Of a DNA stretch of 22,130 nt, positions 16,968 through 19,164 are shown one piece after another (the stretch's first letter is position 1; each line of letters starts with the position of its first letter). The stretch is from a virus. The translations under genes and the position numbers were made by a program. Where the stretch lies: positions 1 through 22,130 of the IMG/VR virus record IMGVR_UViG_3300026519_000071, one strand, 5' to 3'. The notes beneath the pieces were generated by a model. The model was given only the letters and a program-made list of their open reading frames with translations, was not told the origin of the DNA and searched no databases.

Positions 16968-17436
16968 CACACCCCCTCGCCTTCGCAGACAATGCAGCGC
17001 GCACAACTGCACCAGCCGCCAACATCTCGTCAATTTCCTTGATGGCATCTAGCGCCTCACCGGGCGTATAGTCGTGTGGCTTTTTGGAAGCTTCTGACAT
17101 CGCTTCGGAGTGTGATAGCAACACGTCGGAAAATTCCGACATCAACACGCTCATATCCACCCCGATCACACCCTCGACATTCAAAGGCAGGAATATTCCG
17201 CCTGCCAAATGCGCGAAATGCTGGGCCAAAGGCACGGATGACGCGGGAATGATCCGGCCCAGCCTATCGAAGTGGTTTATACCCAGCCCGCCGGGGCGTT
17301 CCTCGTCGCAGGCTGTCGCTCGGGACAGGTTTGCGGTGGAGACACCAATGTCGTTGCTAACGCACTCCAACCCACCGGCGGCGGTAATTGCCATTTGTAC
17401 CGCCGACTGGATTGATCCGGGTCTTACGCTACGCAT
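16951..17436 (-). CDS. CII-like phage transcriptional regulator
   Basis: 161 aa from the ATG at 17436; GGAGG lies eight bases upstream and would be destroyed by the earlier ATG at 17451. The first 50 residues (SAVQMAITAAGGLECVSNDI, GVSTANLSRATACDEE) form a helix-turn-helix of the phage CII/CP76-like type. The rest is helical and could oligomerise (MSVLMSEFSDVLLSHSEAM). It is the second leftward gene after cro, the place of cII in lambdoid phages. Likely an activator in the lysis-lysogeny choice; this is inferred. Confidence 0.7.
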   Translation of the reverse strand: MRSVRPGSIQSAVQMAITAAGGLECVSNDIGVSTANLSRATACDEERPGGLGINHFDRLGRIIPASSVPLAQHFAHLAGGIFLPLNVEGVIGVDMSVLMSEFSDVLLSHSEAMSEASKKPHDYTPGEALDAIKEIDEMLAAGAVVRAALSAKARGCDGNNH

Positions 17437-17493
17437 GGACAAAACCTCCATGTGATTTCCCGTGTGTATAAGACGTAGTTGTGCGAATTATCA

Positions 17494-17691
17494 TCAAGCC
17501 GCCTCGTTCTGATTGCGGTTTTTGGGAGGATTGTCCGCCATGTATTGACGAATTTTATCCGCCGTTCGCATCGAGCAACTGGCCCCAGCCAACCACGCCG
17601 CCCATTTGCTTCCGCTCATTCCACCACCACGCTGTATTACCGTGGTTGGCTGAATGCCAAACGATGCGGCATAGACTTCAATCTGTTTCAT
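17494..17691 (-). CDS. Cro-like repressor
   Basis: 65 aa from the ATG at 17691, which has GGAAG five bases upstream; two earlier in-frame ATGs (17712, 17703) lie within or next to the promoter and lack a site. MKQIEVYAASFGIQPTTVIQ ... SGSKWAAWLAGASCSMRTADKI has the Cro/XRE helix-turn-helix pattern. It is the first leftward gene and is divergent from the CI-like gene, with the operator between them. Expected to counteract CI during lytic growth. Confidence 0.72.
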   Translation of the reverse strand: MKQIEVYAASFGIQPTTVIQRGGGMSGSKWAAWLAGASCSMRTADKIRQYMADNPPKNRNQNEAA

Positions 17692-17709
17692 GAATTCTTC
17701 CATATAGTG

Positions 17710-17739
17710 CATATAGGTTTATTACCCTATTTTCGTCAA
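17710..17739 (-). promoter_or_regulatory. Leftward early (cro) promoter with operator in its spacer
   Basis: Minus-strand TTGACG (17739-17734), 18-base spacer, TATATG (17715-17710); alternatively CTATAT with 17 bases. The spacer is filled by the operator at 17713-17730, so a bound repressor would exclude RNA polymerase. Confidence 0.65.
17713..17730. promoter_or_regulatory. Repressor operator, cro/cI site
   Basis: ATAGGTTTATTACCCTAT, a 5-bp inverted repeat (ATAGG/CCTAT) with an 8-base centre. 17 of 18 bases match the site at 19139-19156. Confidence 0.72.
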
Positions 17740-17745
17740 GGGCTT

Positions 17746-17774
17746 TTGACCTATCGCACAAAATTCAATAATTT
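17746..17774 (+). promoter_or_regulatory. Putative rightward promoter for the CI-like gene
   Basis: TTGACC (17746-17751), a 17-base spacer, and TAATTT (17769-17774). Transcription would begin about seven bases before the ATG at 17788, where no good ribosome binding site exists, so the cI message may be nearly leaderless, as lambda PRM cI mRNA is. Confidence 0.4.
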
Positions 17775-17787
17775 GACATTGTGAGTT

Positions 17788-18150
17788 ATGACAAACGACC
17801 CAACAATCGAACCGTTTTTAGTACGGTTAAAAGAGCGCATTGATAGCGACCCAGACCTAACAGTTTCTGGGCTGGCCATAAAAGCCGGGCTAGACAACAG
17901 TGCTATCCGCAACATGTTTAGCCGTAACTACAAAAGCCTCCGGATTTCAACCGCTCGGCAGATCTGCGCCGCGCTTGGCACAACTCTGGAAGAATTTATG
18001 AGCGAGGCTCACACACCAGAAGAACGAGAGATTGTTCGCCTAGTATCTCGGCTACCCGATCACCTCCGCCGCCAGCTATTAGGGTACGGACAAGGACTTC
18101 TTGTATCCGAGGATCAGGCTGCGCCAAAATCCGGCGAAGACGAACAATAA
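17788..18150 (+). CDS. Short CI-like prophage repressor (XRE helix-turn-helix only)
   Basis: 120 aa. Residues 25-70 (LTVSGLAIKAGLDNSAIRNM, then ISTARQICAALGTTLEEFM) are a clear XRE helix-turn-helix. The C-terminal 50 residues (PEEREIVRLVSRLPDHLRRQ) are a helix of the kind that follows the HTH in short phage repressors. There is no S24 peptidase domain, Ala-Gly cleavage site or Ser/Lys dyad, so RecA-triggered self-cleavage is not expected. It is divergent from cro and next to the shared operator. This is the best candidate for the lysogeny repressor. Confidence 0.76.
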   Translation: MTNDPTIEPFLVRLKERIDSDPDLTVSGLAIKAGLDNSAIRNMFSRNYKSLRISTARQICAALGTTLEEFMSEAHTPEEREIVRLVSRLPDHLRRQLLGYGQGLLVSEDQAAPKSGEDEQ

Positions 18151-18248
18151 TTTCTTTATCAGTCATATTAAGTTTCCATTCTATAATGCGACCCCTCGCA
18201 CAACAGCAGCGCTGGAAACCTTATTCCGCCCCAAAAAGGTAAACCACA

Positions 18249-18836
18249 TTGAGTAGTAGCTTCTCGAATTTTGAATTCATTTTGTTATTTATTGCTGCCG
18301 CTACAGGTGTTTTAACAGCTATTTTCACTGGCATAAGCGTCTGGAACGACCGCAATGAAAAACATGGGAAGGTGCGTGCATCATGGTACCTATCCAAGAG
18401 TTCGGACAATAGCTGGAGCATGATAATCCATGTCTACAATGATACAAGCGAAGTGATCACACTATCGCACATAGGGGTGATCGGAACAGGTCGAATTAGT
18501 AACAACAGGAACCACCAACAACAACCAGACACCAAGTTGTTGGCCGTTTTTGAGGACATTCAACCTAACCAATCCCAAAAAATCGCTGTTAGCTTAGTGT
18601 TGGATATTAAGCCAAGCTTAAGGAAAGCCAAAAGATACCGCGAACGAATTCGGAAACGGTATGCAGAACTTCGCTGGAAACATTTTCAAATACCCGGATC
18701 CGTAGGCGCACCTTTTTTGTTTTCCGCGTTAATACGATTCAATTCATCGACTCGGCGTCCGATGCGGTTAACTGCCACCAAAAGAATTAGTGCCGATATC
18801 ATTGAAAATGTTGAAGACCAAGCAGCGAAAAAGTAA
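18249..18836 (+). CDS. N-terminally membrane-anchored accessory protein (candidate lysogenic conversion gene)
   Basis: 195 aa, not recognised as a named family. One strong transmembrane helix at residues 8-32 (FILLFIAAATGVLTAIFTGI), then a soluble part with beta-rich segments (WSMIIHVYNDTSEVITLSHI) like Ig-type domains of membrane-tethered proteins, then a very basic helix (SLRKAKRYRERIRKRYAELR). The start is TTG at 18249 with AAAAGG nine bases upstream; a perfect TATAAT (18182-18187) sits upstream with a poor -35. It lies directly after the repressor, on the same strand, a usual place for genes expressed in the lysogen such as superinfection exclusion or phage-defence genes. The last 150 bases overlap an antisense small ORF. 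Function is an inference. Confidence 0.6.
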   Translation: MSSSFSNFEFILLFIAAATGVLTAIFTGISVWNDRNEKHGKVRASWYLSKSSDNSWSMIIHVYNDTSEVITLSHIGVIGTGRISNNRNHQQQPDTKLLAVFEDIQPNQSQKIAVSLVLDIKPSLRKAKRYRERIRKRYAELRWKHFQIPGSVGAPFLFSALIRFNSSTRRPMRLTATKRISADIIENVEDQAAKK

Positions 18837-18847
18837 AACAGGGTCAT
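18686..18847 (-). CDS. 53-aa antisense membrane peptide candidate
   Basis: Reads MTLFYFFAAWSSTFSMISAL with a following ILLVAV, so residues 2-28 form a likely transmembrane helix, then a charged tail (RIGRRVDELNRINAENKK). AAGGAG is six bases upstream of its ATG. It overlaps the stop of the 65-aa ORF (ATGA) and runs antisense to the 3' end of the 195-aa gene. The size and layout recall small phage membrane peptides, but no family is known to me and it could be spurious. Confidence 0.4.
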   Translation of the reverse strand: MTLFYFFAAWSSTFSMISALILLVAVNRIGRRVDELNRINAENKKGAPTDPGI

Positions 18848-19041
18848 AACCTACTCCTTTTCAGCCGCGCACCATAAAGAAGTTCTAACAGGCGCTGCTG
18901 CGCCCGAATCCGTTCAGCTGATCCTGACACCCGATCAAGCAGAACTAATTGCGAAGGATCTGCTCGAAAGCAGTGCGCAATGTCGTCTGGTTCAAACCGA
19001 ACCGAACTAATCATTTTGAGTTCGCTAACCGGCACACGCAT
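18844..19041 (-). CDS. 65-aa small protein of unknown function
   Basis: Begins MRVPVSELKMISSVRFEPDD and has a helical C-terminal half (SAERIRAQQRLLELLYGARL). A strong AAGGAG lies six bases before the ATG. The stop overlaps the 53-aa ORF, forming a two-gene cassette. Promoter-like sequence facing this way lies at 19164-19136. A competing reading exists on the plus strand, which carries an open stretch (LTPDQAELIAKDLLESS) without a usable start, perhaps the remnant of an early gene. Uncertain. Confidence 0.42.
   Translation of the reverse strand: MRVPVSELKMISSVRFEPDDIAHCFRADPSQLVLLDRVSGSAERIRAQQRLLELLYGARLKRSRL
18845..18866. repeat. 22-bp direct repeat, copy 1
   Basis: Identical to 19039-19060, and similarity continues for about 12 more bases. 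On the minus strand the repeat contains an AAGGAG ribosome binding site and an ATG, so each copy starts one of the two small minus ORFs. Confidence 0.85.
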
Positions 19042-19060
19042 AACCTACTCCTTTTCAGCC
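19039..19060. repeat. 22-bp direct repeat, copy 2
   Basis: Identical to 18845-18866. On the minus strand it supplies the ribosome binding site and ATG of the 65-aa ORF. It abuts the terminator at 19059-19079. Confidence 0.85.
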
Positions 19061-19079
19061 CCGCATCATGCGGGGTTTT
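19059..19079 (+). terminator. Rightward intrinsic terminator after the repressor block
   Basis: CCCCGCA-TCA-TGCGGGG perfect 7-bp stem followed by TTTT. It would end transcripts from the CI-like and 195-aa genes before the rightward early promoter. Confidence 0.8.
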
Positions 19080-19108
19080 CAATGTTGATTCCATTTCAAC
19101 AACTTTTA

Positions 19109-19126
19109 ATAGGTTATTTGTCCTAT
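19109..19126. promoter_or_regulatory. Repressor operator, right-arm site 1
   Basis: ATAGGTTATTTGTCCTAT: same ATAGG/CCTAT arms and 8-base centre as the other two sites. Centre lies 30 bp (three helical turns) from site 2, which would allow cooperative binding. Confidence 0.65.
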
Positions 19127-19133
19127 TTATGGA

Positions 19134-19164
19134 TTGACATAGGATTATTACCCTATTATGTCAA
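19134..19164 (+). promoter_or_regulatory. Palindromic rightward early promoter
   Basis: TTGACA (19134-19139), 17-base spacer, TATGTC (19157-19162). The outer 8 bases TTGACATA/TATGTCAA are an exact inverted repeat, so the minus strand also reads TTGACA-17-TATGTC. Operator site 2 fills the spacer. Confidence 0.65.
19139..19156. promoter_or_regulatory. Repressor operator, right-arm site 2
   Basis: ATAGGATTATTACCCTAT, one base different from the cro/cI site, and placed exactly between the -35 and -10 of the early promoter. Confidence 0.72.

Follow-up and report, generated by a model that had tools for sequence, protein, structure and literature searches.

Probable immunity operators that vary together with the recognition helix of a short CI-like repressor in phages of Rhodobacteraceae and relatives

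Three copies of an 18-bp palindrome, ATAGG-N8-CCTAT, found in the virus record analysed here (the window, 22,130 bases) are very likely the immunity-region operators of a temperate phage, bound by a dimer of a CI-like helix-turn-helix (HTH) repressor, and comparison with related loci indicates that these sites changed together with the recognition helix of the repressor. The family of operator-repressor loci revealed by this comparison has the common lambda-type immunity plan, and the co-evolution of repressor and operators is recorded in it unusually clearly.

Operator sites and promoters in the window

The window represents a whole virus record, in which a head/packaging module containing the terminase large subunit gene lies on the minus strand and the early region is located at the right end. 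The three copies of ATAGG-N8-CCTAT listed in an earlier note on this DNA all proved to be exact (O1, O2, and O3 in Table 1), compared with the 0.018 copies expected from the base composition in 22,130 bases. The search for further sites that had been suggested was run over the entire record; it yielded no fourth exact copy and one degenerate site, O1b. When two mismatches were allowed, 11 matches were obtained in the window versus 4.25 expected, and only the exact copies stand out.

The description of two copies as lying in the spacers between the -35 and -10 elements of divergent early promoters is essentially correct, with the refinement that O1 spans most of the leftward spacer and also enters the -10 element by four bases, and that O3 abuts TTGAC, the last A of the rightward TTGACA being the first base of O3 (spacer, 17 bp). 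A generic sigma-70 scan of the sequence reported neither early promoter, and our promoter assignment therefore rests on the TTGAC conserved in relatives. The -10 elements of the early promoters are weak, and that of the putative promoter of the CI-like gene is weakly conserved. The ATG of the Cro-like gene is positioned nine bases past O1, with the predicted transcription start at or beside it, and the Cro-like mRNA is probably leaderless. On the other side, 12 bp separate the end of O2 from the start of O3. The spacing of the two sites (30 bp, or 2.86 turns at 10.5 bp per turn) agrees approximately with the three helical turns claimed earlier, and it ranges from 28 to 31 bp in relatives. Hairpins similar to the terminator upstream of O2, GC-rich and followed by T residues, are present in the same position in loci L004, L009, and L010.

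Table 1. Features of the immunity region, with positions in the window
Feature	Position	Strand	Basis
Cro-like gene, small HTH protein (69 aa)	17494..17703	-	ORF; conserved in all loci
Predicted leftward early promoter, TTGACG (17739-17734) N17 CTATAT (17716-17711)	17711..17739	-	Sequence; same geometry in relatives
Probable operator O1, inside the leftward promoter of the Cro-like gene	17713..17730		Exact ATAGG-N8-CCTAT; counterpart in 35/35 main-set loci
O1b, degenerate fourth site CAAGGGCTTTTGACCTAT, over the -35 elements of the leftward and CI-like promoters	17737..17754		Match with two mismatches
Putative promoter of the CI-like gene, TTGACC (17746-17751) N17 TAATTT (17769-17774)	17746..17774	+	Sequence
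CI-like repressor gene (120 aa)	17788..18150	+	Pfam and PHROGs matches; HTH_26/HTH_3 domain, two C-terminal helices
Accessory gene between repressor and O2 (195-aa protein with hydrophobic N-terminus)	18249..18836	+	ORF
Predicted intrinsic terminator just upstream of O2	19057..19079	+	Hairpin of -15.1 kcal/mol (z -4.35), then UUUU
Probable outer right-hand operator O2, directly upstream of the rightward -35	19109..19126		Exact motif; in 33/35 loci
Predicted rightward early promoter, TTGACA (19134-19139) N17 weak TATGTC (19157-19162)	19134..19162	+	Sequence; TTGAC kept in relatives
Probable operator O3, filling the spacer of the rightward early promoter	19139..19156		Exact motif; abuts TTGAC without a gap in relatives

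Genes of the immunity region

The CI-like gene runs rightward between O1 and O2 and is followed by the accessory gene and then by the intrinsic terminator. Its product matches PF13443 at the Pfam cut-off, and its AlphaFold model (pLDDT 80) consists of an HTH bundle and two C-terminal helices. Structure comparison revealed a fold of the 434/SinR/C-protein type, with Z scores of 7-9 to C-proteins, SinR, and the 434 and P22 domains, which is the five-helix 434/P22-like DNA-binding fold of the XRE/HTH_3 superfamily. Neither the domain search nor the model revealed a LexA/S24 self-cleavage (peptidase) domain in the 120 residues, HTH_26/HTH_3 being the only domain found. The protein thus belongs to the XRE repressor superfamily, outside the LexA-domain CI family. 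A comparison of this protein with an annotated phage collection yielded no match.

The predicted model of the Cro-like protein shows a four-helix HTH fold (pLDDT 84), and the structure comparison of this model returned no significant match. The protein had previously been given as 65 aa long, which corresponds to the same ORF read from a later start. Because a longer N-terminus beginning with M[ED]..[FL] is conserved in relatives, the gene very probably starts four codons further upstream and encodes 69 aa. Another 65-aa ORF, on the minus strand at 18844-19041, was weighed as a candidate for the Cro-like gene and rejected; L008, a Rhodobacteraceae metagenome-assembled genome (MAG) and the nearest relative, has a 91-aa plus-strand ORF (10466-10741 in L008) that takes in this stretch. 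A 3' remnant of this plus-strand ORF persists in the window, with the minus-strand ORF probably being a shadow of it.

The 195-aa accessory protein matched nothing in Pfam, PHROGs, or PADLOC, and PADLOC flagged no defence gene in the slot separating the repressor gene from O2. This slot contains a different gene in nearly every phage (L004-L037), on either strand, and the product is often a small membrane protein or lipoprotein; these genes are possible superinfection-exclusion genes. The rightward early operon of the window encodes a DUF2303 protein (PF10065; 20294-21292), and in L008 an excisionase-like and an integrase-like ORF lie downstream.

Conservation of the site layout in relatives

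Relatives were retrieved from viral contigs, genomes, and plasmids, the queries being the CI-like protein and its alignments. A single-sequence search with the Cro-like protein detected no relatives, and an alignment search with it added only contigs already reached via the CI-like protein. The named hosts are mainly Rhodobacteraceae and relatives, and the phages of this family are for the most part phages of marine bacteria. The main set, which was analysed first, consists of 35 loci, including the window and two duplicates. O1 was found in the same place in all 35 loci and the O2/O3 pair in 33, and a best-triple score of 31 was reached in 30 of the 35 loci but in none of 175 dinucleotide-shuffled controls. 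The two loci with no detectable O2/O3 pair (L030 and L034) are divergent, and L034 spans only 3.3 kb with a short right-hand side; in addition, O2 of L035 and O3 of L036 are imperfect. In relatives, O1 begins 3-4 bp after TTGA[C/G] and ends 9-11 bp before the ATG, and O1 and O3 are 555-1833 bp apart. Nine loci found later also have the rightward site and the pair; in several of these, O1 is present next to a -35 element other than TTGAC and was read by eye, as the pattern missed it.

One relative, L013, is the circular 33.8-kb Phaeobacter inhibens plasmid pP66_i, which carries the CI-like/Cro-like pair together with terminase, portal, and capsid genes and looks like a phage-plasmid; an IMG/VR contig (L020) has the same operators. 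Genome G104 contains four copies of the module (L032, L035, L036, and L037) with four different operator sets. Three of these copies have an almost identical Cro-like gene, and two lie near contig ends, where assembly calls for caution. The open-access papers searched contain no account of this operator family.

Covariation of operators and repressor

The outer TAG..CTA of the operators is nearly invariant, and bases 5-7 vary between phages but agree within one phage. The agreement of O1 with O2/O3 of the same phage at bases 5-7 was 159, compared with -72 (sd 23) under permutation, and the best of 20,000 permutations reached only 25. Residue 36 of the CI-like protein accounts for 79% of the variance at operator base 5 (null, 17%; 0 of 20,000 permutations), and operator base 6 varies together with residue 42; these were the leading pairs among the 604 tested, in statistics that correct only coarsely for shared ancestry. 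The link between residue 36 and base 5 survives permutation within clades. Where residue 36 is D or A, base 5 is G in 67 of 72 half-sites; G at residue 36 is paired with A or T at base 5, and N mostly with T. The rule is incomplete: the clade L023-L029 contains both D and N with the same operators, and held-out phages with S36 have T, A, or G. As read from the ranges aligned in the structure comparison with the 434 repressor, residue 36 lies close to position 27 of that protein, where the recognition helix begins. Positions 27-29 and 33 of the 434 repressor contact bases. Operator distance follows the recognition helix of the CI-like protein (r 0.16, p 0.014) and does not follow its C-terminal part (r -0.18). 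Since residue 36 tracks operator base 5, we take the CI-like protein as very probably the one that binds O1, O2, and O3.

A natural swap is provided by the window and L008. In 60-column blocks, the two sequences are 93-100% identical over 17400-17700 and 92-98% identical over 17938-18178, but only 52-72% identical over 17700-17937, the stretch that contains O1, the repressor promoter, and the HTH. The accessory genes differ, 18898-19077 is identical, and identity around O2/O3 is 63-82%. The operators of L008 read TAGTTC-N4-GTTCTA, a sequence that occurs exactly three times in the 2.6-Mb L008 genome, each time at the immunity region. The covariation and this swap together argue that the repressor determines operator specificity.

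The degenerate site O1b lies between the two divergent -35 elements and is operator-like with weakened outer bases. Its inner bases follow the operators of its own phage (81 versus -20, sd 17, when permuted; 25 phages), whereas control offsets gave 0.1-1.4 sd. Some phages, such as L012 and L014, do not show O1b. These features suggest that O1b is a weak autoregulatory site.

Proposed mechanism

We infer repressor binding, repression, the order of site occupancy, and autoregulation from these comparisons as follows. A dimer of the 120-aa CI-like repressor, encoded between the sites, would bind O1, O2, and O3. On O1, it would cover the spacer and -10 element of the leftward promoter and thereby silence the Cro-like gene and the genes downstream of it; on O3, aided by O2 30 bp upstream, it would silence the rightward early operon. 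Occupation of O1b, over the -35 elements of the repressor and leftward promoters, would probably result in negative autoregulation at high repressor levels. In each relative, all of the sites would have changed with the recognition helix, giving rise to new immunity specificities, and this joint change is probably how related phages ignore each other's immunity. Because no self-cleavage domain was found in the CI-like protein, prophage induction via an antirepressor, by analogy with Salmonella phage SPC32H (PMC9986798), is a possibility.

Alternative explanations

The local AT content is higher than that of the rest of the window, so palindromes arising by chance in an AT-rich stretch, as well as sites of a host regulator, had to be weighed. 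Both readings are contradicted and were rejected, and we give them practically no credence. Only approximately 0.002 exact sites are expected in the local 1.6 kb, which the exact triplet far exceeds, and in dozens of relatives the positions are conserved while the letters are phage-specific. A host regulator would not alter its sites in step with a phage repressor. The concern that the motif might be common in the host chromosome was not borne out in the relatives either, as exact ATAGG-N8-CCTAT occurs only 1-3 times per genome of 2.6-5.5 Mb. Lambda-like looping, in which dimers on O1 and on O2/O3 bridge 1.4 kb, is an addition to the repressor-operator explanation and not an alternative to it. 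In nearly all relatives, sites at the two promoters flank the repressor gene, the two C-terminal helices in the CI-like model could serve oligomerisation, and the HTH part of the SPC32H repressor, described as tetrameric (PMC9986798), is among the structure matches. However, the C-terminal helices contained no recognisable tetramerisation domain, the O2-O3 spacing drifts, and the O1-O3 distances lack helical phasing (Rayleigh p 0.72 at 10.5 bp), although phasing should matter little at such lengths. We therefore regard it as rather doubtful that looping is needed for tight repression or autoregulation.

The earlier note suggested binding assays with both proteins. The covariation and the swap make the CI-like protein the most probable binder; a Cro-like protein sharing this site specificity finds no support in the comparison. 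Transcription of the Cro-like gene from the promoter that holds O1, the HTH fold of its product, and a weak Mantel signal for the Cro-like HTH (r 0.12, p 0.049) would all suit a Cro-like protein that mainly binds the sites, or binds them equally with the repressor as in lambda, with operator/Cro co-evolution. That signal was lost on controlling for the CI recognition helix (p 0.11), and the overall Mantel r between Cro-like and operator distances was -0.004. Moreover, L032 and L036 encode identical Cro-like proteins, and that of L035 is identical over the first 62 residues, yet their operators differ (TAGTC, TAGTA, and TAGAT among L032, L035, and L036); L010 and L016 also have the same Cro-like HTH with different operators, and the Cro-like proteins of the window and L008 differ by one residue. 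Since identical Cro-like proteins occur with different operators, the Cro-like protein does not determine the variable operator bases, and its use of the repressor's operators in the lambda manner is very unlikely. It could read the invariant TAG..CTA part or other DNA. As a tentative idea, possible though not favoured, the Cro-like protein may not compete for the operators at all, leaving the repressor and operators free to change together; the switch would then not be one of CI/Cro mutual repression, and the small leaderless gene would act via other sites or partners.

Relationship to known immunity systems

The arrangement resembles OL/OR of lambda with CI and Cro, as the earlier OL/OR-like reading of two divergent early promoters had it: a repressor gene lies between divergent early promoters, the palindromic operators (17-18 bp) lie inside the promoters, and a neighbouring small HTH gene, accessory genes in the immunity region, and a predicted leaderless transcript are also shared. 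It differs in that lambda has three plus three sites, compared with one good and one degenerate site here and two on the other side, in the 120-aa repressor without a self-cleaving domain, and in the Cro-like protein, which does not follow operator specificity. The telomere phages PY54, N15, and phiKO2 (immB) have leaderless cI and cro mRNAs, and PY54 Cro binds a single operator (one OR3 site) and not all of the repressor sites (PMC4488713); their repressor is of another family. As cited there, a study of lambdoid phages (Hall et al. 2005) correlated the helices of Cro with operator half-sites, whereas the correlation in the present family is with the repressor.

In Cluster A mycobacteriophages, the operator consensus of each phage drifts with its repressor, resulting in heteroimmunity (PMC6550527); these stoperators comprise up to approximately 30 sites across the genome, in contrast to the promoter-linked palindromes found here. 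The HTH part of the short SPC32H repressor superposes on that of the CI-like protein (Z 8.6 over 65 residues), with a sequence identity of only 15%, and its dimerisation and tetramerisation domains (PMC9986798) were not recognised in the CI-like protein. The Roseobacter-clade Sulfitobacter phages phi-A and phi-D also have XRE regulators without a LexA/peptidase domain, in a switch that has yet to be deciphered (PMC7305329); as the CI-like protein has no match in annotated phages, we claim no kinship with them.

For a family of short repressors without a peptidase domain, carried by prophages of Rhodobacteraceae, the computed operator map is now complete. The XRE-type lysogeny switches of this bacterial group have been singled out as awaiting decipherment (PMC7305329). 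The dozens of repressor-operator pairs constitute a natural series for the recognition code, at residue 36/base 5 and residue 42/base 6. With the near-identical pair of the window and L008 and the four-copy genome G104, this series also serves the study of how phages gain new immunity.
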